50,258 nt of DNA from Anabaena sp. UHCC 0187 (GTDB taxonomy: Bacteria > Cyanobacteriota > Cyanobacteriia > Cyanobacteriales > Nostocaceae), in contig NZ_VILB01000018.1 of the NCBI RefSeq assembly GCF_009712035.1, forward strand, positions 1 through 50,258, in the 5' to 3' direction. Positions within the stretch are counted from its first letter, which is position 1. Each line of letters opens with the position of its first letter. The notes under the pieces were generated by a model. That model worked only from the letters and a program-made list of their open reading frames with translations. It was not told where the DNA came from and made no database searches. The translations under genes were made by a program, and so were the position numbers. Of this stretch, positions 777-43,575 are shown in pieces.

Positions 777-3338
777 ATGTATGGCTTGAGCCACACTGTG
801 CTATCAGCATTGTCTAAGTTTTATGGAGCAGAAGTTGTGACCCAGGAATTTCACCTTTCCGCAACTCCAGTAGGGCAAAATGACTACCTGGTGAGGACGG
901 AACAAGTTGCACCTGGGGTGCCATTGGCAGAAGAACTGGTGCATTGGCCTGTGGCTGAATGGTTAGCGGCCGCAGGACATTTGATGGATGACCCTTTGCA
1001 GTTAGTTTTGCAGGGGGATATGATCTCCAGAAACTCTGTTAACTTGGTGTCCTTGGGTCAAGAGTTGTATAACGCCCTGTTTCAAGGAACTCTCAGGGAT
1101 AGTTGGATTACTGCCCAAGGTATTGCCCAAAATCACCAACAGGTGCTGCGGCTCAGATTGGGACTCAAGGATACGAGGTTGGCGCGGTTGCCTTGGGAAG
1201 TGATGCACGCGGGCGATCGCCCTTTAGCTACAGGCCCTTATATTACCTTTGCCCGTTACCAAAGTGGTATTGCCCCACCATCCCGGTTACTGAGTCATAA
1301 TCTGCCCCCGTCGCCAGAAGCACGGGGGATAAAAGTGTTAATGGTGATTTCTTCGCCTACCGACTTAGTGCGGCTGGATTTACTCAAACAGGAAGCTATT
1401 AACCTAAAAGCGGAACTGCATCGGCAAGCATTAAGAGTGGTTGATGATCATCATCATCATCTCCCAGAAATTGAATTGACTGTTCTGGACGGCCCAGGTC
1501 GGGAAGAACTCACCCAAGCTTTAGAGCAGGGACATTACCATATTCTTCACTATTCCGGTCATAGCAACTTGGGCGCGAATGGTGGGCAAATTTATCTAGT
1601 CAGTAAAAAAACTGGTTTAACAGAAACTCTCAGCGGAGATGATTTAGCTGGATTACTGGTGAATAATAATATTCAAATGGCTGTGTTTAACTCCTGTTTG
1701 GGAGCATATCGGGCTAAGTCCGAGGCGTTGGAAGACTCAGGAGAACGGAATTTAACAGAAAGCTTGGTAAAACGCGGAATTAGAAGCATATTGGCGATGT
1801 CAGAACGCATTCCTGATGAGGTGGCGTTGACGCTGACACAATTGTTTTATCGCAACTTGAGTCAGGGCTATCCCTTGGATTTATGTGTAAGTCGGGTTCG
1901 TCAGGGTTTGATTTCTGCCTATGGTTCTGAGCAGATGTACTGGGCGTTACCGATTTTGTATCTTCAGCGAGAATTTGATGGTTGTTTGATACCAAAAGTT
2001 AACTTACCTGGCTACATGACTACGCCTAGCGGGCTATCGGAGTTATTGAACGAATATCAACCCCCTAAGCAGACAAATAGTTATAACTATTCTACTGGGG
2101 CTAGTAATTTAGAAATACCTTTAGCTATTGATGATATCCTCAATCCTAATTTGCCAGAGGATAGTGCCGGGGTAGACTGGCTAGGGGAAGATACTTGGGG
2201 CGATCTGGTAGATGAAATTGAGTATGATAATCCTAGCTATCATGAGGATTCGGCAATAGTTTCTGATTTATTTCGTCAACTTGGGACTCCGGTTAATAAA
2301 ACAGAAGAACCAAGTATGAAAGCCGAACTCATACCACAGGAGCATCATCTGTCGGAAATGCAAGTTGCCCAGACGAAACAAAATTTAGATTGGGGAAATG
2401 TACCCAGTCAGATTACCTCAACCTCCTCCAATATTGAAAAGCGTCAGGTAAATCCTCAGTTATCACCGTCACCTGTCCCTCCACAAGGTAATCGCTCTCG
2501 CCAGACAAAATCACCATTGTTGTTGTATGGCTTGGTGGGAGCAAGTGCAATTTCTGTCATTGTTGGTATTGGTTGGTGGTGGCATCAAAAACAAGCTCAG
2601 AAGTCTACTGATGTTCCGCAAATTCCCGGACAAAATTCCCAGAATCATCAGTATCCAAGTATTAATTTAGCTAATTCAGCTACAGGAATTGTCACGGCTA
2701 CAGCTATGGCACAGTTGAGTCAAGGCAATTTAAAGGCTGGCTTGGATGCTATTAATGAATTACTCAATCGTGGTGCTTTCGCCTCTGCGGAAACGGCTTT
2801 AAATTTGATTCCTGCTCAAGATGCTGAAAATTCATCTGTGAACTTTTTTCGCGGGCGATTAGCTTGGCAGTCAGTACAAACAAAAAATAATAAATACAGT
2901 ATTGATGATGCCCGTCGTTATTGGGCTAGGGCTGTACAAAATCAGCCAGATTCTCTTGTATATAATAATGCTTTAGGATTTGCCTATTATGCGGAGAATA
3001 ATCTTAATTATGCTAATGATGCTTGGTTTAAGTCTCTGAGTTTAGCATTAAAACCCCAGGAGAATAAAAGTTCTAGCCCGATGAAATATCCACAAATAGC
3101 TGGACAACCGGAAGCTTTAACAGCTTATGCTGGGTTAGCGTTGGGTTTATATAAATCTGCCAATACTCAACCTCCTGATAAACGCCAACAATATTTACGT
3201 GAAGCGATTAAACTTCGACAAATGGTGATTCAAAATGCACCCGCAGACTTTACTATTGAGAAATTGTCACAAAATTGGCTGTGGACGGAACAGGCGATCG
3301 CCGATTGGGGCGCACTCTTACAAGAAAATAGTCCATAA
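777..3338 (+). CDS. hetF: HetF, CHAT-domain heterocyst differentiation protein
   Basis: This 853-residue protein has a caspase-like CHAT domain in the N-terminal half. The His-Cys dyad is visible as HYSGHS (His262) and NSCLG (Cys307). A linker rich in acidic and polar residues follows, then one membrane segment at about residues 579-603, and a C-terminal TPR-like helical region (about 635-850). In heterocystous cyanobacteria HetF is required for heterocyst formation, limits HetR accumulation and takes part in cell division. The preceding NsiR1-like repeats match the known gene neighbourhood, which strengthens the call. A stop (768-770) lies in frame just upstream of the ATG, fixing the start. 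No strong ribosome binding site is seen. The length agrees with known HetF proteins (a little over 820 residues). Confidence 0.9.
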   Translation: MYGLSHTVLSALSKFYGAEVVTQEFHLSATPVGQNDYLVRTEQVAPGVPLAEELVHWPVAEWLAAAGHLMDDPLQLVLQGDMISRNSVNLVSLGQELYNALFQGTLRDSWITAQGIAQNHQQVLRLRLGLKDTRLARLPWEVMHAGDRPLATGPYITFARYQSGIAPPSRLLSHNLPPSPEARGIKVLMVISSPTDLVRLDLLKQEAINLKAELHRQALRVVDDHHHHLPEIELTVLDGPGREELTQALEQGHYHILHYSGHSNLGANGGQIYLVSKKTGLTETLSGDDLAGLLVNNNIQMAVFNSCLGAYRAKSEALEDSGERNLTESLVKRGIRSILAMSERIPDEVALTLTQLFYRNLSQGYPLDLCVSRVRQGLISAYGSEQMYWALPILYLQREFDGCLIPKVNLPGYMTTPSGLSELLNEYQPPKQTNSYNYSTGASNLEIPLAIDDILNPNLPEDSAGVDWLGEDTWGDLVDEIEYDNPSYHEDSAIVSDLFRQLGTPVNKTEEPSMKAELIPQEHHLSEMQVAQTKQNLDWGNVPSQITSTSSNIEKRQVNPQLSPSPVPPQGNRSRQTKSPLLLYGLVGASAISVIVGIGWWWHQKQAQKSTDVPQIPGQNSQNHQYPSINLANSATGIVTATAMAQLSQGNLKAGLDAINELLNRGAFASAETALNLIPAQDAENSSVNFFRGRLAWQSVQTKNNKYSIDDARRYWARAVQNQPDSLVYNNALGFAYYAENNLNYANDAWFKSLSLALKPQENKSSSPMKYPQIAGQPEALTAYAGLALGLYKSANTQPPDKRQQYLREAIKLRQMVIQNAPADFTIEKLSQNWLWTEQAIADWGALLQENSP

Positions 3339-3357
3339 TTGGAGATAATGAGAAAAA

Positions 3358-3373
3358 TGTGGAATCCAATACA
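3358..3373 (+). promoter_or_regulatory. Candidate NtcA site upstream of glnB
   Basis: TGTG-N8-TACA (3358-3373) differs at one position from the NtcA consensus TGTA-N8-TACA. It lies 100 bases before glnB, with AT-rich -10-like sequence (TAACTAT) about 20 bases downstream. glnB is a classical NtcA target in cyanobacteria. The site is inferred from pattern and spacing only. Confidence 0.5.
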
Positions 3374-3454
3374 TTAGTCCAAAGTTAAATAACTATGGCT
3401 ATATTTACAGCGTGAGACAACGAATCTGGTTAGATATATAAACGACGTTATTAG

Positions 3455-3811
<357 letters not shown>

Positions 3812-3847
3812 ATACTAAGTATTGGCTGTTGCATATCCAAAAAATGG

Positions 3848-3896
3848 GCGTTGCTGAGTCTGTAAAGATGAAAACAGAAAATCAGCAGCGCTTTTT
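3848..3896 (+). terminator. Rho-independent terminator of glnB
   Basis: GCGTTGCTGA (3848-3857) pairs with TCAGCAGCGC (3882-3891), with one G-T wobble, over a 24-nt loop. TTTTT follows immediately. It lies 36 bases after the glnB stop and ahead of the convergent hydrolase gene. Confidence 0.75.
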
Positions 3897-3926
3897 ATTG
3901 ACTATTTAAGCTAACCACAGGGGGCA

Positions 3927-4832
3927 TTAAATTTTAAATTCCCCAGTTTTGTGATATTTTTGCAATATTCCTATGACAACCGCTGGTATTTCTAAATGGG
4001 GGAGAATTCCCGCGTCTGGTATTTCCTGAAAGCCTTTAATTGCACCGGGATTTAAACTTGCTAACCGTCGTCCTAATTGAATATTGGTAAATTGTGCTTT
4101 TTCACCCCACAACATGACAGTTGGAACTTGAAGTTGCTGAATATATAAACTCAAATCAAAATAAAGATTTCCGCGTAAAAATGACAAAGCCGCAAATTTG
4201 GCTTGATATTGTTGTGCAGAACTTAAATAAGCTGATACCATTTCTTGGGTAACTCTTTCTGGGTTAGCAAACAGAAAACTTTGCAAAAAATTCCTAACGG
4301 CAATTTCATTTTCTGCACCCAAAGCGTAAATTAAATTATCTACCAACGGTGTATTAATTAAAGAAAGTGGTAATCTTCTTCCTGCACCTTCTCCAAAGTC
4401 ATTGAATCCCGAAGGACAAACTAAAAATAAAGCTTTGAATAAGTCGGGATAAGTGACAGCGAGACGAATAGTTAAAGCCGCTGTTAAAGAAGATGCTACT
4501 ACAGTTACAGGTTGATCACAAGTTTGAGTAATAAACTCAAGAATTGTTGTTAAATAATCTTCAATTTGATAATCTCGTACCGGGTGAGCAGATTTTCCCC
4601 AACCAATTAAATCTGGGGCTAAAATTCGATATTGTGACGCATAAGCTGGGTAAATTTTCGACCATTCATAAGCAGAAGCACCACCACCAAAATTATGTAG
4701 AAATAACAATGGTGGTAAATTTTGATCTTTGGCATTTTCCCAAGGGGAATTAATTTGGGTATAGTAAACCATTGACCCCAAAGATGTATGAATGAATTTA
4801 CTACCAAAACCAGGAGGTTGAAACTGAAGCAT
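3927..4832 (-). CDS. Alpha/beta-fold hydrolase
   Basis: This 301-residue protein has the alpha/beta hydrolase layout. There is an oxyanion loop LHNFGGGAS (about 45-53), the strand APDLIGWGKS, a nucleophile elbow, and a C-terminal His in ILPHLEIP (His279). The elbow reads VASSLTA, with Ser115 as nucleophile. Ala and Thr replace the usual glycines of GxSxG, which is uncommon. The substrate is unknown; relatives include esterases and haloperoxidase-like enzymes. Its ATG lies two bases beyond the stop of the HugZ-type gene (4835-5335, minus), so the two form an operon with HugZ first. The second gene has no room for a separate promoter. Confidence 0.75.
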   Translation of the reverse strand: MLQFQPPGFGSKFIHTSLGSMVYYTQINSPWENAKDQNLPPLLFLHNFGGGASAYEWSKIYPAYASQYRILAPDLIGWGKSAHPVRDYQIEDYLTTILEFITQTCDQPVTVVASSLTAALTIRLAVTYPDLFKALFLVCPSGFNDFGEGAGRRLPLSLINTPLVDNLIYALGAENEIAVRNFLQSFLFANPERVTQEMVSAYLSSAQQYQAKFAALSFLRGNLYFDLSLYIQQLQVPTVMLWGEKAQFTNIQLGRRLASLNPGAIKGFQEIPDAGILPHLEIPAVVIGILQKYHKTGEFKI

Positions 4833-5665: not shown

Positions 5666-7150
5666 ATGAATAACAACAATCGTTCTCAATGGGATTTGTG
5701 CAGGTTTCTCAAAACTCTAACTTATTTTGAAGTATTTCCAGTTCTTAACTGGATAGAAAAACTCTTTCAAGGTAGTCCAAAAGATAATCAAGATATATCA
5801 AAAGAAGGAAGAAATATGGCTGTAATTCTGGTAGCTGGTGCGACGGGTGGGGTGGGTAAACGTGTTGTTAAAAAATTGGTAGCACAGGGTTATAATGTGC
5901 GCTGTTTGGTTAGAGATATTGAAAAAGCGCGGCCAATTTTGGGTGATGATGTGGATTTGGTAGTTGGAGATATTACGAAACCAGAAACTTTGACAAATCT
6001 AGTTATGGCTAATATTCAAGCTGTAATTTGTTGTACGTCGGTGCGTGTTCAACCTGTGGAGGGAGACACACCAGATAGGGCAAAATATAATCAAGGTGTG
6101 AAATTTTATCTCCCGGAAATTGTCGGAGATACTCCAGAAAATGTTGAATATCAAGGTGTGAAAAATTTAGTCACAGCAGCCGCAAAATATTTAGTTTCTG
6201 TCGGAGAAAAACCCATATTTGATTTTACTAAACCATCAGATGAAATCAAAAATATTTGGGGTGCTTTAGATGATGTGGTTATGGGTGGTGTCAGTTCTAG
6301 CAGTTTCCAAATTAGAGAAAATACTGCAGTATTTACAGGTAATGTTTCTACGGCTAATTCTGGGGGTTTTGCTTCGGTAAGAACTAAGAATTTTTCACCT
6401 TTACTTGATTTATCTGGTTATCAAGGTGTGAAATTGCGGGTAAAAGGTGACGGTCAACGTTATAAAATATTTATCCGCACAGAGTCAAATTGGGACGGTG
6501 TTGGTTATAGCTATTCTTTTGATACTGTTGCTAATAATTGGCTAGATATTCAGATTCCTTTTACAGATTTAGTTCCGGTATTTCGTGCCAAAATTGTTAA
6601 AGATTGTCCAGCAATGGACGCGAGTAAAGTTTGTTCTGTGCAATTAATGTTGAGTAAGTTTGAATATGATGGTGCTTTAAATCCTGCATTTAATCCGGGT
6701 ATTTTTGTGCTGGAAGTTGCATCAATTCAAGCTTATGGTGGGGAAACTTTACCTCAATTTGTATTAATCAGTTCTGCTGGGGTGACTCGTCCCGGAAGAC
6801 CAGGAATTAATTTAGATGAAGAACCACCAGCAGTAAGATTAAATGACCAATTGGGAGGAATTTTAACTTGGAAGTTGCGAGGAGAAGAAAGTGTCAAAGC
6901 TAGTGGAATTCCTTATACAATTATTAGACCTTGTGCGTTGACAGAAACAGCAGGAGGGAAGGAATTAATCTTTGAACAAGGTGATAATATTAGGGGAAAA
7001 GTTAGCCGTGATGATGTTGCGGAAATTTGTGTACAAGCAATTAAATCACCAAAAGCTAGTAATCTCACTTTTGAAGTTAAGGAAAGTGAAGTAATTGCTG
7101 ATAGTTTAAATTGGACAAAGCTATTTTCTTCTTTACACTCTGATAAGTAA
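5666..7150 (+). CDS. SDR/NAD(P)-binding protein with inserted CIA30 domain (HCF173-like)
   Basis: This 494-residue fusion starts with a Rossmann fold (GATGGVGKRV at about residue 57, then CLVRD). It is interrupted by a CIA30 domain (about 187-345; start IFDFTKPSDE, with ALDDVVMGGVSSS), and the Rossmann part then resumes (VLISSAGVTRPGRPG, IIRPCALTE). The architecture is that of plant HCF173, a factor for psbA mRNA translation and photosystem II assembly, and of conserved cyanobacterial homologues. An alternative ATG at 5816 would trim the protein to the Rossmann start. The N-terminal extension (QWDLCRFLKTLTYFEV) resembles the conserved leader of these proteins, so I keep the upstream ATG. Activity is untested. 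Confidence 0.8.
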   Translation: MNNNNRSQWDLCRFLKTLTYFEVFPVLNWIEKLFQGSPKDNQDISKEGRNMAVILVAGATGGVGKRVVKKLVAQGYNVRCLVRDIEKARPILGDDVDLVVGDITKPETLTNLVMANIQAVICCTSVRVQPVEGDTPDRAKYNQGVKFYLPEIVGDTPENVEYQGVKNLVTAAAKYLVSVGEKPIFDFTKPSDEIKNIWGALDDVVMGGVSSSSFQIRENTAVFTGNVSTANSGGFASVRTKNFSPLLDLSGYQGVKLRVKGDGQRYKIFIRTESNWDGVGYSYSFDTVANNWLDIQIPFTDLVPVFRAKIVKDCPAMDASKVCSVQLMLSKFEYDGALNPAFNPGIFVLEVASIQAYGGETLPQFVLISSAGVTRPGRPGINLDEEPPAVRLNDQLGGILTWKLRGEESVKASGIPYTIIRPCALTETAGGKELIFEQGDNIRGKVSRDDVAEICVQAIKSPKASNLTFEVKESEVIADSLNWTKLFSSLHSDK

Positions 7151-7172
7151 AGATTGATAAAATCAAACATTT

Positions 7173-7197
7173 GTTGGGTTTCCTTCGTCAACCCAAC
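7173..7197. repeat. Dispersed GTTGGGTT hairpin
   Basis: GTTGGGTT (7173-7180) pairs with AACCCAAC (7190-7197) around TCCTTCGTC. Nearly the same hairpin with the same flanks occurs at 13067-13092. Looser relatives lie at 27370-27405 and 47509-47535, always in intergenic space at gene 3' ends. It probably serves as a terminator or transcript-stabilising repeat. Confidence 0.55.
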
Positions 7198-7218
7198 CTA
7201 CAATTTTAATTTGATAAT

Positions 7219-7569
7219 ATGATGTTGAGAAGATTGTTAATAACTGGGATATGTGTGATTATTGTTTGGAGTGGTGTTTTATTGAATTCTGCGTCACCTC
7301 AGCAAGTTGATTTCCGGGTAAATAATTTAGAATCTGATGTGAGAAGTTTACAATTGCGCTTACAACAACTTGAGTTAATGGTTAGTAAAAATAATCAATT
7401 ACCTGGTACTAACAATTCTCCAGTTTCTCCGAATATGAAACAGAATTTATCACAATCACAACAGGAGAAAATGTTTAAGAATTTGGCGACTTTAGTGGTT
7501 GAATTAAAAGAGAAAATTAACAAACTCACAATTCGCGTTAATCAACTGGAGAAACTTAATGTCAAGTAA
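7219..7569 (+). CDS. Exported coiled-coil protein, function unknown
   Basis: This 116-residue protein starts with a basic, then hydrophobic signal or anchor segment (RRLLITGICVIIVWSGVLL). The remainder is hydrophilic with heptad-like leucine spacing (NNLESDVRSLQLRLQQLEL and again near the C-terminus), indicating coiled coil on the outer side of the membrane. The gene overlaps the next one by 11 bases, so the two are likely translated together. I do not recognise a family. The signal region and the operon-like overlap make it a believable real gene. Confidence 0.6.
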   Translation: MMLRRLLITGICVIIVWSGVLLNSASPQQVDFRVNNLESDVRSLQLRLQQLELMVSKNNQLPGTNNSPVSPNMKQNLSQSQQEKMFKNLATLVVELKEKINKLTIRVNQLEKLNVK

Positions 7570-7951
7570 AGATAAATCCATTACTTATGACGGTGGTTGT
7601 CACTGTGGTGCGGTGCGGTTTCGGGTAGTAGTTAATAACCACAAAGTTGATGATTGTAATTGTTCAATTTGTGCTAAAAAAGGATTTTTACATTTGATTG
7701 TCACCAAAGAACAGTTCACTTTGCTACAAGGGGAAGATGTCTTAAAAATTTACAAATTTAATACGGGAGTCGCACAACATAAGTTTTGCAGTATTTGTGG
7801 AATTCATTCCTTTTATATTCCCCGTAGCCACCCTGATTGTATTGATGTTAATGTGCGGTGTTTAGATGGAAATGTCATTGGCAATTTTGAAGTTGTACCT
7901 TTTGATGGTGCAAATTGGGAGGAAAATATTCATAAGTTAAAAAGAGGTTAA
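7559..7951 (+). CDS. GFA-family zinc protein
   Basis: The 130 residues match the GFA (glutathione-dependent formaldehyde-activating enzyme / CENP-V) fold. There are zinc ligands GGCHCGAVRF near the start, CNCSIC in the middle, and FCSICG after the conserved GVAQHKF segment. Members are small carbon-sulfur lyase-like proteins; most bacterial ones have no proven substrate. The start overlaps the end of the upstream coiled-coil gene by 11 bases, suggesting translational coupling. The length is normal for the family and all Cys ligands are present. Confidence 0.85.
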   Translation: MSSKDKSITYDGGCHCGAVRFRVVVNNHKVDDCNCSICAKKGFLHLIVTKEQFTLLQGEDVLKIYKFNTGVAQHKFCSICGIHSFYIPRSHPDCIDVNVRCLDGNVIGNFEVVPFDGANWEENIHKLKRG

Positions 7952-8054
7952 ATAAATTAGTTTTTTTAATAGTTGGAAATTTAGCCTCTGAACTGTGATA
8001 TTTTAATCATGTCTATTCAATTGTCGAAAATGTTGTAATTACTAAATAACAAAT

Positions 8055-39159: not shown

Positions 39160-39288
39160 ATGGGGCAGTTCTCAGACTGGATGATAGTTGGTGCATTTAC
39201 TTTTGGTGTTGGTATAACTGGTTCTTTTACAGGACAAGTCAGCGTGGCTTTGTTAGGTAGCTTACAGAAAAGCCACACAATTAAATAA
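39160..39288 (+). CDS. Small membrane peptide, 42 residues
   Basis: An ATG at 39160 with AAGG seven bases upstream opens 42 codons ending at TAA 39286-39288. The product starts MGQFSDW. It has one hydrophobic, Gly/Thr-rich stretch (MIVGAFTFGVGITGSFTG) and ends KSHTIK. It lies 144 bases ahead of the GrpE-like gene, which is also membrane-anchored, and could be part of that operon. The short length makes the call uncertain, but the SD and single clean membrane segment support it. Confidence 0.45.
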   Translation: MGQFSDWMIVGAFTFGVGITGSFTGQVSVALLGSLQKSHTIK

Positions 39289-39432: not shown

Positions 39433-40197
39433 ATGCGTAAAACTACAAACCCTTTTAAAAAACATCCGCTTCTTTATGGCATTACTGCAATTATTTTCGT
39501 CATTTCTCTGATAGGTCTTGCAGTTATTCTTTTACCTAATCCCCTTAAAATTGGGCGCGATATCCTCTTCGTTATTTCAGCAATTTACCTTTTGGTATCT
39601 TTTAGCTTTTTCTTATGGATCTCACTGCGAGATCAGGATCAAGAATTGGTGGGTGTCTTGCCAAAAACAATTGAAGAACTCAAAAGAGTTGGCAGAGAGT
39701 ATTACAGAAATACTGCTGCTATTGAAGAAAATAGTGCGCGAGTTGATAAATTACATAACGGTATTGAACAGGAAATTGGAGAGCTTATAGAGAGTAACAA
39801 GTCTATTGCCAAAGAATTGATGGAACTGCGTCAAGAAAAGGGTAATTGCCAGCGTGAATTAAATAATTGGTACAAGAGTGCTATTGATTTTTTTCAAACA
39901 TTGGAACGAGGACTTGAAACTGAAAAAAATCATGAGCGTCTAGAAGTGATTGAGAAAAATATTCGAGAGTTTGAAATGCTTTTTAACAACCGGGGTTTAT
40001 ATCGCATCATTCCATCTATTAACGGTAAGTTTGATGAAACTCAACATGAGTTTAAGGGTGAAGAAATATCATCAGAACTAGAAGATGGATCTATTCTAAA
40101 ATGCAATCGTTGGGGATATAGATTAGGTGAAAAAGTATTACAACCAGCAGCAGTAATTCTCGCCAAAAAACCTGAATCCTTAGATTTTTCTGAATAA
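39433..40197 (+). CDS. Membrane-anchored GrpE-like exchange factor
   Basis: The 254 residues start with two transmembrane helices (about 13-34 and 44-65) joined by a short loop. A coiled coil (about 78-150) follows, then a C-terminal GrpE-like beta domain (about 185-245). The beta domain has GKFDETQHEF (Phe200, Asp201, His205), DGSILKC, and GYRLGEKVLQPAAVILAK, matching the FDP..HEA and GY.L.dRVLRPA.V..AK blocks of GrpE. Ordinary GrpE is soluble; an anchor of this kind is unusual. AAAGGAGT lies ahead of the ATG. With the next two genes it completes a GrpE-Hsp70-J protein operon. Confidence 0.7.
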   Translation: MRKTTNPFKKHPLLYGITAIIFVISLIGLAVILLPNPLKIGRDILFVISAIYLLVSFSFFLWISLRDQDQELVGVLPKTIEELKRVGREYYRNTAAIEENSARVDKLHNGIEQEIGELIESNKSIAKELMELRQEKGNCQRELNNWYKSAIDFFQTLERGLETEKNHERLEVIEKNIREFEMLFNNRGLYRIIPSINGKFDETQHEFKGEEISSELEDGSILKCNRWGYRLGEKVLQPAAVILAKKPESLDFSE

Positions 40198-40308
40198 GAA
40201 ACACCTGTAGAACCTCTTAAAGATATCAAGACTGATTCTTAGAGAGTATTATTCAAACTGTAACTTTAATTGCATCACTACGAAAGGTATTATCAGGAGA
40301 TTTCAAAA

Positions 40309-42045
40309 ATGACAACAAATTACGCCATTGGTATTGATTTAGGTACATCAACCTCAGAAATTTGTGTTTATAAAAATAATGAGTCTTTACCAATTTCTGA
40401 TCCGAGTACAAAAATTCCTATTATCCCTTCAATTGTTGCTATCAATGAGCGAGGAAAACTTTTAGTTGGAGAAACAGCAAGGGGAATTGTTGATCGTGCA
40501 GGTTTTGGTGTGAGAGAAAGCAAGCGAAAAATGGGAAAAGGTGAAGTAATTAGCTTACGAGAACAAGATTATCGTCCAGAAGAAATTGCCGCTTTGATTC
40601 TGAGGAAATTAAAGGATAATGCTGAAGAAGCCTTAGGACACCCAATTCAAGATGTAGTCATTTCCGTACCTGCTAATTTTCCAGATGCTGCTCGTAAAGC
40701 CACATATAATGCTGGTGAGATAGCTGGTTTGAATATACTCCGTTTGATCAATGAACCAACCGCAGCAGCATTAGCATTTGGCATTAAAAATATTAATTCT
40801 GAAGAACAACTTGTTGTGTTTGACTTTGGTGGTGGAACTTTAGATATTTCAGTTCTAGAAATGTTTGAAGGAGTGTTAGAGGTAAAAAGCAGTTTCGGTG
40901 ATGAGGAATTGGGTGGTAAGGATTTTGATGATGTGATGATTTTGCTGTTACTCAAAAAATTTGCAGCACAGCATCCAGAAGTTTCAGTTGATAACCGTGA
41001 AACGGAATTAAAGGAAAAAGCAGAACTAGCAAAGAAAATACTTTCTACAGAACAATCTTGTGATGTTCACTTTTCCAATTTTGCAACTAAAGATGGAAAA
41101 GCAATTGATTTAGATGTAGAAATTACTCGCACAGAATTTGAACAAGCGATCGCTCCACTTTTAGAAAGAGCAAGAACTTGTATCCGAGGAGCATTAAATG
41201 CTAAGAAAATCCGACCAAGTGCAATTGATAGAGTGTTGCTAGTTGGTGGTACAACCTATATTCCCGCAGTGCGGAAAATGGTAGCGGAAATGTTTGGAAA
41301 ACAACCAAAATTAGATGTTAATCCAGATTTAGCAGTTGGTATTGGTGCTTGTATACAAGCTGCTCTAGCCAATGGATTAATTAATGAAGAAAGCGGCATT
41401 ATTTTAACAGATGTATCCTCCCGTGGTTTAGGAATTGATGTGGTGAGCATCATCGGTGGACAAGTGATGTTGACTTATGAACCGTTGATTCAACCAAACA
41501 CTACTATCCCTTATTCAGTCAAAAAAACTTACACCTTACTTCATGCTGAACAACAGCAAGTTGAAGTGCGACTCTATGAAGATCGTACAGGCAAGGCTAA
41601 ACTGCCTGTAGATGCTGAAGATACGGGAATTGCTGGTCAGATTACTGATATCCCACCTGCACCAAATGGCAATCCTTATCCAATTGAAATTGAATTTTCT
41701 TACGATATTAATGGGCTTGCTACACTTACAGCCAGTATTCCCGATATTCGTAAAAGTGTTGAAATTGTCTATGGAAAGTCAGACAAACGCATGACTGATG
41801 AGGAAAAACAAGCCGCTACAAAACGTAATCAAGACTTATGGAAACAGAATGAACGAGCAAAAGAATTTGAAAGCTTGATCAATAAAGCTGAAGGCTTTAT
41901 GGCAGGTATTCCACCCCAGGAAAGATCGCCTCTTTCTCGCGCGGTAATGGATTTGAAAGAGGCTTTGATGACTGACAATTCTCATGAGATTGAAGTAGCA
42001 GGTGATCGCCTCATAGACATGATGTATGACTGGGAAAATCAATAG
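40309..42045 (+). CDS. Hsp70 (DnaK-like) chaperone, short form
   Basis: From the ATG at 40309 (AGGAG ten bases upstream) this is 578 residues. The ATPase domain (about 1-355) is complete: IDLGTSTSE at 9-17, NEPTAAALAFG, VVFDFGGGTLDIS (about 170), and VLLVGGTTYIPAVRKM (about 308). The linker region reads ILTDVSSRGLGID instead of the usual LLLDV-type sequence. The substrate-binding beta domain is present (about 380-500), then a short lid of about 75 residues. The disordered tail of DnaK is absent. It is flanked by a GrpE-like gene and a J-domain gene 12 bases downstream. Confidence 0.88.
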   Translation: MTTNYAIGIDLGTSTSEICVYKNNESLPISDPSTKIPIIPSIVAINERGKLLVGETARGIVDRAGFGVRESKRKMGKGEVISLREQDYRPEEIAALILRKLKDNAEEALGHPIQDVVISVPANFPDAARKATYNAGEIAGLNILRLINEPTAAALAFGIKNINSEEQLVVFDFGGGTLDISVLEMFEGVLEVKSSFGDEELGGKDFDDVMILLLLKKFAAQHPEVSVDNRETELKEKAELAKKILSTEQSCDVHFSNFATKDGKAIDLDVEITRTEFEQAIAPLLERARTCIRGALNAKKIRPSAIDRVLLVGGTTYIPAVRKMVAEMFGKQPKLDVNPDLAVGIGACIQAALANGLINEESGIILTDVSSRGLGIDVVSIIGGQVMLTYEPLIQPNTTIPYSVKKTYTLLHAEQQQVEVRLYEDRTGKAKLPVDAEDTGIAGQITDIPPAPNGNPYPIEIEFSYDINGLATLTASIPDIRKSVEIVYGKSDKRMTDEEKQAATKRNQDLWKQNERAKEFESLINKAEGFMAGIPPQERSPLSRAVMDLKEALMTDNSHEIEVAGDRLIDMMYDWENQ

Positions 42046-42057
42046 GGGTGTAATCAA

Positions 42058-43575
42058 ATGGCTTACGAACTTTACGAAACACTAAATCTCCCCACACAAG
42101 CATCTAGTGAAGAAATTCGCCGTTCATATTATCGTCTAGTACGCAAACATTCACCGGAGAAAGATCCTGAAAGGTTCAAACTTATTCGAGAGGCTTATGA
42201 GACCCTATCCGATCCTAAAGCCAAGCAAGGCTATGATTCATTACAGAAACATGGTGGAGAAATTATTCAACTCCTAAGTCAAGCCGAAGATAGAATCAAT
42301 GAGGAAAATTGGACTGAAGCAATTCGTCTCCTCAAACATACTCTGATACTTTCTCCTACTTCCGATCCAATTCGTAATCGTTTGGGATTATGTTATATCC
42401 ATAACAAACAATTAGATGAAGCTGGAAAACTGTATTATAGTTTAACTAAATCAAATCCTGATGTTGCTCTATATTGGTCGAATTTTGGTTGTACTTATAA
42501 AGAAAAAGCAGAATCTGTTTCAGAAAACGATTCTCAGCGTTCTGAACTCTATAAAGGAGCGAGAACTTGCTTTAAAAAGTCAATAGAGTTAGAGTCTTTT
42601 AACTCACAACCTTTCATGGTGATTGCCCAAACTTTTTTAGCTGAAGAAAATTACTCAGAAGCTGTCAACTGGACAGAGAAAGCTATAGGTGCAGATGGAA
42701 AAGTTGATTTTCAAGACTTTGATGCACTTTTCTCCCTTTGTATTATTTATTTACGCAGTAGTCAACTAGAACAAGTTACATCCACAGCAGAACGGATTAT
42801 TTCTTGTTTACCAGAAGATGAAGATGTACGCAATTACGTTGCATCTAAATTTGCCGTGATTGGATTTGAACTAGTTGAAGCTGGTGCAAAATACATAAAC
42901 CCCAACATATTAAAAGCTGCACTAACTTTCATGGAAGCAGCAAAAAGATTCAGTCCTGGTAATGGTGAAATTGGGAAAATACATAAGAGCATTTCAGAAG
43001 TTGTTAGTGCTTTCAGTCAATATGATATTCTCAAAGATGATTATCAAATTATCCCCGGCTTTAAAAGATTAGCAGCATTCGGCATTGTAACCGCATTGGG
43101 AGCAGAAGATTCTGCCTATGAACGAGAAAGAAATTTCAAAAGTATCATTGATGAAATTAGCAACTCACCTGATAACGAAGTTTTCGCATCTGCACAGCGG
43201 ATAAAGTCTAGATATCCTGCCATATATCAGTTAAATGCTGAATTTTTTGCTCGACTGGAAAAGATAGCTCTAGATATTTCTAAAAAGCAGCAGTATCAAC
43301 CACAATCTCAAACACAGTCTCAAACTACTAACAATTCTTCGGATTGCTTTGTTGTTACAGCCACTTACGGTACACCATACTCACCAGAAGTAATTAAATA
43401 TCGTTACTTCAGGGATGAATATTTAACTAAGAATATCTTAGGAAGGAAATTCATTGGTCATTATTATCGTTTTGGTCCGATAGCTGCAAGCTACATTAAA
43501 AAGCACCCAAATCTCAAAAAAATAATGGCGTTTTTGCTGGGTAATTTAGCTAAATACTTACCTAATCAAAATTAG
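42058..43575 (+). CDS. J-domain/TPR protein with C-terminal CFI-box domain
   Basis: This 505-residue protein starts with a J-domain (about 1-65: YELYETLNLPTQASSEEIRR, then AYETLSDPKAKQGYD). The invariant HPD is replaced by SPE in RKHSPEKDPERF. A long TPR region follows (about 75-300), with a helical stretch to about 420 and a Gln/Ser/Thr-rich linker. The CFI-box domain (about 430-505) has DCFVVTATYG, YRYFRDEYL and GHYYRFGPIAASYIKKHP. The ATG lies 12 bases after the Hsp70 stop. The protein is probably the co-chaperone of that Hsp70. A strong terminator (43606-43670) closes the operon. Confidence 0.8.
   Translation: MAYELYETLNLPTQASSEEIRRSYYRLVRKHSPEKDPERFKLIREAYETLSDPKAKQGYDSLQKHGGEIIQLLSQAEDRINEENWTEAIRLLKHTLILSPTSDPIRNRLGLCYIHNKQLDEAGKLYYSLTKSNPDVALYWSNFGCTYKEKAESVSENDSQRSELYKGARTCFKKSIELESFNSQPFMVIAQTFLAEENYSEAVNWTEKAIGADGKVDFQDFDALFSLCIIYLRSSQLEQVTSTAERIISCLPEDEDVRNYVASKFAVIGFELVEAGAKYINPNILKAALTFMEAAKRFSPGNGEIGKIHKSISEVVSAFSQYDILKDDYQIIPGFKRLAAFGIVTALGAEDSAYERERNFKSIIDEISNSPDNEVFASAQRIKSRYPAIYQLNAEFFARLEKIALDISKKQQYQPQSQTQSQTTNNSSDCFVVTATYGTPYSPEVIKYRYFRDEYLTKNILGRKFIGHYYRFGPIAASYIKKHPNLKKIMAFLLGNLAKYLPNQN

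Follow-up and report, generated by a model that had tools for sequence, protein, structure and literature searches.

A 50,258-nucleotide stretch of DNA from Anabaena sp. UHCC 0187 (contig NZ_VILB01000018.1; the window) carries, at positions 39433-43575 of its plus strand, three open reading frames (ORFs) that encode a GrpE-like protein (39433-40197, 254 residues), an Hsp70 (40270-42045) and a J-domain protein (42058-43575, 505 residues). The listed ORF of the Hsp70 starts with TTG at 40270; the ATG at 40309 agrees with the homologues and yields a protein of 578 residues (40309-42045). Counted from this ATG, 111 bp separate the GrpE-like gene from the Hsp70 gene, and 12 bp lie between the Hsp70 gene and that of the J-protein. 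An earlier sequence-only reading of the window had described the set as GrpE-like, Hsp70 and J/TPR/CFI-box genes (TPR, tetratricopeptide repeat), and Pfam and NCBIfam matches above the cut-offs bear out this description.

The first gene encodes a GrpE-like nucleotide exchange factor with a predicted N-terminal membrane hairpin. The Pfam GrpE match (53.5 bits against a cut-off of 25.8) covers residues 94-245 (39712-40167). Upstream of it, hydropathy averaged over 19 residues reaches 2.88 in a segment starting at residue 16 and 2.39 in one starting at residue 44-45, and two transmembrane helices are predicted at approximately residues 12-34 and 39-67 (39466-39633). An AlphaFold2 model calculated from 19 related sequences, with a mean predicted local distance difference test (pLDDT) score of 81.5, comprises N-terminal helices at residues 12-32 and 39-67, where confidence is low (pLDDT ~55-70), a 93-residue helix (71-163), a second helix (167-185) and strands between residues 189 and 245. 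The sequence-only reading was to be abandoned if the C-terminus failed to model as GrpE; querying the PDB with Foldseek placed GrpE chains at all of ranks 1-12 (1dkg, 9a81, 9blt, 9bls, 3a6m, 4ani and 8gb3; E-values 1.6e-8 to 1.3e-2). The low TM-scores (0.46-0.61 by target length, 0.29-0.37 by query length) and large root mean square deviation indicate that parts of the model match GrpE while its overall posture differs. Because four Lys/Arg residues lie within the first 12 positions and the turn is short, the GrpE domain should face the cytosol, with a predicted N-in/C-in topology.

The second gene product is recognized by the Pfam HSP70 profile (381.6 bits, cut-off 20.6), and scores 386.3 bits with the DnaK equivalog TIGR02350, below its cut-off of 822.55. 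As had been noted from the sequence alone, it is short, with 578 residues against 638 in E. coli DnaK, and its interdomain linker is altered to IILTD (41398-41412), as compared to VLLLD in DnaK and VILTD in E. coli HscC. Several traits are HscC-like: the length (550-580 range), a deletion corresponding to residues 76-101, an insertion in loop L1,2 and the linker ending in TD. The 76-101 deletion is also present in some DnaK-type proteins (L115; PMC8215388). In an unrooted tree of 42 Hsp70 sequences (IQ-TREE, LG+C20+F+G4), 27 window-type sequences formed a clade with support 100/99, and HscC formed a separate clade, also with 100/99. These two clades share one side of a branch supported at 98/91; DnaK, HscA and L112 occupy the other, with HscA, L112 and L111 being long rows of unsure placement. 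The window Hsp70 looks like a line of its own, closest in style to HscC. Two features extend beyond the sequence-only reading: this Hsp70 is HscC-like in several traits yet possesses a GrpE-signature loop, and its J-protein has SPE in place of the HPD motif.

The GrpE-signature loop is kept in the window Hsp70 at 41083-41112, the equivalent of the DnaK 290-295 region. A review by Mayer states that this signature is missing in HscA and HscC, suggesting that neither uses GrpE (PMC8215388). In our alignment, the signature region spans 29 residues in 24/24 Hsp70s of the GrpE-linked group, comprising 23 whose neighbor is a GrpE-like gene, plus L165. It is likewise 29 residues long in L071 and in L112, which also has a GrpE neighbor, and 29-30 residues in 6/6 DnaK sequences, and is shortened to 23-24 residues in 7/7 HscC proteins and to 19 in HscA. 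In L096 and L097, two relatives linked to a PilB-type ATPase whose upstream gene is readable and is not a GrpE gene, the region is shortened to 25 residues (2/2). The GrpE loop and the exchange factor go together, with the two short-looped relatives representing a single lineage, and the loop retained in the window-type Hsp70s matches the dedicated GrpE beside them. Residues for J-domain binding are also largely conserved in the window-type Hsp70s: R167, T173, D393 and P419 are kept in 24/24 and N170 in 23/24. Of these, we take N170, T173 and D393 to be further J-domain contacts of DnaK. The contacts described for DnaK are R167, Q378, L391, P419 and D477 (PMC8215388).

The third gene encodes the J-domain/TPR/CFI-box co-chaperone. 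Pfam detected a DnaJ domain (53.9 bits, cut-off 27.8) and TPRs at approximately residues 75-240 (TPR_19, 43.5 bits, cut-off 25), but none of the downstream domains of DnaJ. In the predicted model (mean pLDDT 85.1), the J helices are present and are followed by a helical solenoid, TPR-type in its first part, which extends from about residue 76 to residue 412 (42283-43293). The C-terminal domain (43345-43545) matches the NCBIfam profile CFI_box_CTERM, NF041770, at residues 430-496 (74.7 bits, cut-off 40), and is the only NF041770 match in the genome. With a net charge of +9 and amphipathic helices that reach a hydrophobic moment of 0.48, it is a candidate membrane-binding module. The term 'CFI-box' was absent among the literature matches listed.

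Alignment with E. coli DnaJ, DjlB and DjlC places SPE (residues 32-34; 42151-42159) at the position of HPD; the alignment to E. coli DnaJ is ungapped before the motif, and the loop after it is shorter. Among 27 J-domains aligned from 34 loci, with seven loci outside the alignment, the motif reads SPE in 12, PPE in 6, PPD and PPQ in 2 each, and CPE, RPE, RPQ, RPD and AVA in 1 each; HPD occurs in none. While a His precedes the window motif (HSPE), a shifted HPD is unlikely because 13 of 16 family members have Tyr at that place, as does DnaJ. Nor is the loss of HPD unique to this set, since DjlB and DjlC carry HPE, and the annotated J-proteins adjoining two other HscC genes carry RPD (L109) and DIE (L111); the HscC neighbor in L107 has no Pfam DnaJ match and was left out of these counts. 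The ratio of nonsynonymous to synonymous substitution rates (dN/dS) for the J-domain was 0.09-0.25 in 7/7 pairs, and was lower than that for the rest of the gene in 6/7, the exception being L164-L167 (0.246 versus 0.226). The motif codons differed between the pairs by synonymous changes only. These are Nei-Gojobori values over 63 codons, individually rough, from 10 sequences of which some were reused, so the pairs are not all independent. A J-domain without HPD appears to be kept by purifying selection rather than to be decaying.

Genomes were sampled from the phylum of the window and from that of L071, an Armatimonadetes metagenome-assembled genome (MAG). Within the family of the window, the J-protein query matched 27/192 genomes at E ≤1e-30, in 15/56 genera. 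We examined 22 of these 27 loci, namely the window, genome G282 (L070) and 20 more, counting G613 and L072 once. The co-occurrence of the three genes, which the sequence-only reading had left to be sought, was observed in 20/22, always in the order GrpE-like gene, Hsp70, J; the two exceptions are L165, in which no GrpE-like gene was detected, and L168, whose sequence stops within the Hsp70. Of the 20 triads, 5 contain a gene that is broken, shortened or fused: L070 has a stop in the J gene, with the CFI-box beyond it; in L159 the Hsp70 lies in two frames and the J gene is shortened; the GrpE of L166 is cut before the beta domain; an Hsp70 remnant is fused to J in L177; and J is split in L178. 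In the phylum of L071, 12/201 genomes matched the J-protein at E ≤1e-15. Hsp70 adjoins J in 8 of these, and 5 also have the GrpE-like gene in the same order (L091, L092, L101, L093 and L094; in the last two, it was found by profile search, BLAST being too weak). L071 itself is cut at a contig end, L096 and L097 are without a GrpE-like gene, and L095, L098, L099 and L100 have J without an Hsp70 in the stretch fetched. As the three-gene order is kept in two phyla, a chance assembly is very unlikely.

A wider sample of 291 cyanobacterial genomes yielded 24 matches to the J-protein at 1e-8, only 2 of them full-length, and 73 matches to the GrpE-like protein at 0.001, only the same 2 being close (63% and 100%); the others mostly comprise just a J-domain, a CFI-box or a GrpE part. 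A scan with two short patterns found at least 2 loci, a lower bound rather than a gauge of spread. The set is patchy but real. A plasmid origin was considered and rejected: PLSDB held no match to the transmembrane GrpE at E 0.01, and no close relative of the Hsp70, although distant ones are possible (205 records match, none at ≥60% identity, the highest among the best 40 of 205 being 37.7%). A role in anti-phage defense was likewise set aside, with PADLOC returning only weak matches (E 0.003 or worse) and none for J.

The sequence-only reading had taken the machine to be membrane-tethered, perhaps for envelope or thylakoid clients. Tethering is predicted for the window GrpE from its two putative transmembrane helices, and applies to a subset of the family: a hydrophobic N-terminal segment is present at 8/25 GrpE-bearing loci. 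Two segments were observed in the window, L070, L159, L091, L092 and L101, and one in L093 and L094, with the start codon uncertain in both. The two best hydropathy peaks range from 1.8 to 2.9 in the 6 two-segment GrpEs and do not exceed 0.92 in 13 aligned soluble ones. The J-protein tails correspond. In 7/7 readable loci with a hydrophobic-segment GrpE (L101 is cut), the J-protein bears either a CFI-box (window, L159, L091 and, beyond the stop, L070) or a C-terminal transmembrane segment (L092, L093 and L094). At the soluble-GrpE loci, with the exception of L172, the J-proteins have neither; those of L169, L170 and L177 have another C-terminal extension. That transmembrane helices occupy the place of the CFI-box in L092, L093 and L094 suggests that the CFI-box could do the same job as a transmembrane tail. 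Correlated tethering was rejected as proof of joint membrane work and is suggestive only, because the tree holds one independent pair. As a separate observation, L096, L098, L099 and L100, where J has no GrpE neighbor, encode J-proteins with a short, basic C-terminal tail that contains aromatic or aliphatic residues (for instance, GFMGWFKGKK) and may bind membranes.

Taken together, we lean towards a dedicated, non-housekeeping Hsp70 system with an exchange factor of its own and a non-HPD J-domain maintained by selection; its cycle would run on the cytosolic side of a membrane. This reading draws on the gene order, the GrpE model, the loop retention, the J-contact residues, the dN/dS values and the match between tethers and tails, and, by analogy, on the HscC-DjlB/DjlC precedent. 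In the proposed cycle, the TPR part of the J-protein would select the client, and the SPE/PPE J-domain would dock on the Hsp70 linker region through conserved contacts of the Arg167/Asp393/Pro419 type. Docking would trigger ATP hydrolysis, and the Hsp70 would clamp the client. By way of the retained GrpE-signature loop, the membrane-anchored GrpE would then open the nucleotide-binding domain, so that ADP and client leave at the membrane. As both co-chaperones would sit there, clients would be captured and released at the membrane even with an Hsp70 that is itself soluble. More tentatively, and at somewhat less than even confidence, we propose that these proteins represent a third bacterial Hsp70 line beside DnaK/HscA and HscC, with its own nucleotide exchange factor and a J-domain that activates without the His and Asp of HPD ([S/P]-P-E), and with both co-chaperones fixed to the membrane in some lineages.

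Several observations weigh against this proposal. In 17/25 loci the GrpE is without a hydrophobic segment (uncertain for L171 and L175, where the gene is cut by the contig start), and membrane work is consequently not a general property of the family. The soluble-GrpE locus L172 has a J-protein with a C-terminal transmembrane segment, and three other such loci, L166, L177 and L178, carry the shortened, fused or split genes described above. Mapped on the Hsp70 tree, the GrpE transmembrane trait changes once and the J anchor twice, which provides one independent pair and no significance. The form combining a transmembrane GrpE with a CFI-box is rare, and 2/3 of its cyanobacterial loci look damaged (a stop inside J in G282; a broken Hsp70 frame with part of J missing in a Nostoc MAG), so this form may be dispensable or the assemblies may be faulty. 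On the Hsp70 side, position 378, which contacts the Asp of HPD, is Gln in only 10/24 window-type proteins, and D477 is kept in 0/24, lost as in HscC. Lastly, in all systems examined, stimulation was lost when the H or D of HPD was changed to Q or N (PMC8215388, PMC13254874).

This last point leads to a rival explanation in which the co-chaperone is a type IV, or pseudo, J-protein that targets or holds the Hsp70 by its J-fold and TPRs without ATPase stimulation, any stimulation coming from housekeeping J-proteins or from the client. HPD is found in 0/27 aligned J-domains, and even conservative changes of its H or D abolish stimulation; a 2026 J-protein review names HPE as the sole change that seems tolerated, and calls it enigmatic whether such deviations arose by accident or selection (PMC13254874). 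We nonetheless regard a pseudo-J-protein as unlikely, though it is the strongest of the rivals: purifying selection acts on the J-domain, including its motif, in the sequence pairs compared, most of the DnaK-side contacts are retained in the window-type Hsp70s, and HscC is stimulated by DjlC, which has HPE and an equally short loop (PMC8215388). The RPD and DIE motifs beside other HscC genes also suggest that the loss of HPD is usual for the partners of such Hsp70s. That kinship with HscC could be pressed further, to an HscC-like stress system serving the cytosolic domains of membrane proteins such as metal exporters, the GrpE being either a later addition or a component that HscC has lost. 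The short length, 76-101 deletion, L1,2 insertion, TD linker, non-HPD short-loop J-domain and membrane-bound J-proteins are common to both, and HscC/DjlBC mutants are Cd2+ sensitive (PMC8215388). Against this are the separate clades, the kept GrpE loop, the occurrence of the 76-101 deletion in DnaK-type proteins and the fact that no metal gene was recognized beside the window set, and we rate the idea a little lower still.

A chaperone for a type IV pilus, a type II secretion machine or a linked polysaccharide export system is an improbable identity for the window set, even though secretion or pilus machines are, by analogy, plausible clients of the wider family. In two genomes of the L071 phylum (L096 and L097), the Hsp70-J pair directly follows genes for a secretin (137.4 and 127.1 bits) and a PilB-type ATPase (PF00437, 454.9 and 455 bits, with MshEN), and an enolase gene comes after the pair (by Pfam in L096, by eye in L097). 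At the J-only loci L098 and L100, the gene after J (3055-4041 and 6994-8022) has the prepilin N-methylation motif PF07963 (33.0 and 32.1 bits). Precedent exists in DnaK1-DnaJ3-GrpE, of which DnaK1 and DnaJ3 interact with pilus motor proteins (PMC9239167, PMC12288463), and in Myxococcus, where SglK and StkA are tied to motility and polysaccharide (PMC8265645, PMC4319316). The PilB-linked Hsp70s, however, form a long side branch whose members have no GrpE and a shortened GrpE loop, and L098 and L100 lack an Hsp70 in the stretch fetched. Around the window set and the GrpE-bearing loci, no pilus gene was recognized by eye (L170-L175 viewed in part), and the grpE-dnaK-dnaJ set that adjoins pilB/pilT in this genome is a separate one. 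Least probable of all, in our estimate, is a mobile accessory module of no fixed role, such as part of a defense or accessory island, drifting in cyanobacteria. The patchy occurrence (27/192 family genomes, 15/56 genera, a full-length J in 2/291 genomes of the phylum), the several damaged copies and the flanks that differ between the window and G282, whose triad has cas1 with a repeat array on one side and a C-5 DNA methylase on the other, would fit such a module; the purifying selection detected in the pairs examined, the same gene order in two phyla and the lack of any notable PADLOC match (best E 0.003, and none to J) do not.

The wider genome contains 9 HSP70 matches, four of them full-length including that of the window, and six GrpE-family matches, four over the cut-off. 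The three further full-length Hsp70s are DnaK-type, and a canonical grpE-dnaK-dnaJ cluster lies at G000:C4 ~300-309 kb (L180), beside pilB and pilT; the window set is distinct from the housekeeping one, as the sequence-only reading had held. Other genes of these families were observed in the same genome. At G000:C4 476-488 kb, a 1060-residue NYN-HSP70 fusion lies beside a 420-residue protein (L183 3804-6983 and 7265-8524, minus strand) whose weak GrpE score of 19.8 bits falls short of the cut-off; the two may be a further unusual pairing of Hsp70 and exchange factor. G000:C2 encodes a 230-residue protein that joins a Cro/C1-type helix-turn-helix (PF13443) to a GrpE domain (PF01025, 32.7 bits; L182 5384-6073, minus strand), and G000:C5 a short GrpE-like protein of 164 residues (60.7 bits; L181 6309-6800, minus strand); a similar short GrpE-like protein in L019 adjoins a degenerate J-like ORF. 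Elsewhere, a 40-kb plasmid of Nostoc sp. UHCC 0302 carries a J-GrpE-Hsp70-TPR cluster with a TPR gene before it (L112 3824-7214), whose Hsp70 the tree places on the side of DnaK, and the Rhodococcus plasmid pDK2 a DnaK-GrpE-J-CbpM-ClpB stress cluster (L114 2992-7701). The G282 triad stands between cas1 (283.4 bits), with a CRISPR-like array seen by eye, and a C-5 DNA methylase (266.9 bits; L070 1506-12430). In the window, an ORF of ~41 codons with one hydrophobic stretch lies directly upstream of the GrpE-like gene (39161-39286, plus strand, by eye), and rpe, moaA and rpsD lie near the set (Ribul_P_3_epim, Mob_synth_C and Ribosomal_S4 matches).

If the more tentative reading of a third Hsp70 line is true, HPD would be replaceable by coevolution rather than lost by decay, and the whole cycle of capture and release would be confined to the membrane in some lineages. 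Two phyla offer a natural set in which a non-HPD J-domain, apparently kept by selection, is encoded together with a dedicated Hsp70 and exchange factor, which makes the question of accidental versus selected HPD deviations directly testable with three purified proteins. The family also allows a natural comparison of Hsp70s that differ in the presence of GrpE or of the GrpE-signature loop, and includes a GrpE that carries a predicted membrane hairpin.

The sequence-only reading knew of no functional description of such a system. For exactly this set that holds as far as the literature searched, mainly outside subscription papers, reaches: we recognized no description of it or of a membrane-anchored GrpE there; two known systems are nevertheless close in logic. 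The nearest, E. coli HscC-DjlB/DjlC, shares the short Hsp70, the 76-101 deletion, the L1,2 insertion, the ILTD-type linker, and a dedicated, membrane-associated non-HPD J-protein with the same short loop, the hscC and djl genes being near each other. It differs in that HscC has no GrpE partner (PMC8215388), its signature region being 23-24 residues long against 29, and in that DjlB and DjlC are tail-anchored by a C-terminal transmembrane segment and carry HPE (PMC8215388, PMC13254874), whereas the J-protein of the window carries TPRs and a CFI-box in place of that segment, and its motif begins with S rather than H. An identity of the window Hsp70 with HscC was ruled out by the separate clades and the kept loop. 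The second, cyanobacterial DnaK1-DnaJ3-GrpE, likewise combines a dedicated Hsp70, a TPR-bearing J-protein and GrpE with a link to membrane machinery, but DnaK1 of Nostoc punctiforme works with the single GrpE of that species (PMC9239167), while the window set has its own. An identity with the DnaK1 pilus set was also ruled out: the C4 cluster beside pilB/pilT, arranged much like the DnaK1 pilus chaperone described for cyanobacteria (PMC12288463, PMC9239167), is such a set elsewhere in the same genome, and its Hsp70 (L002) groups with DnaK, in a clade other than that of the window Hsp70. Myxococcus SglK (MxDnaK2)-GrpS, which we liken to the window set by description only, is a second Hsp70 that shares an operon with a GrpE of its own (PMC11019930), although SglK is of the DnaK family and complements E. 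coli dnaK (PMC8265645). With the housekeeping DnaK-DnaJ-GrpE system, the window set has in common the three functions, the GrpE fold and the length of the GrpE-signature loop, and departs from it by a short Hsp70 of another clade, a J-protein without HPD and a GrpE with a predicted transmembrane hairpin.

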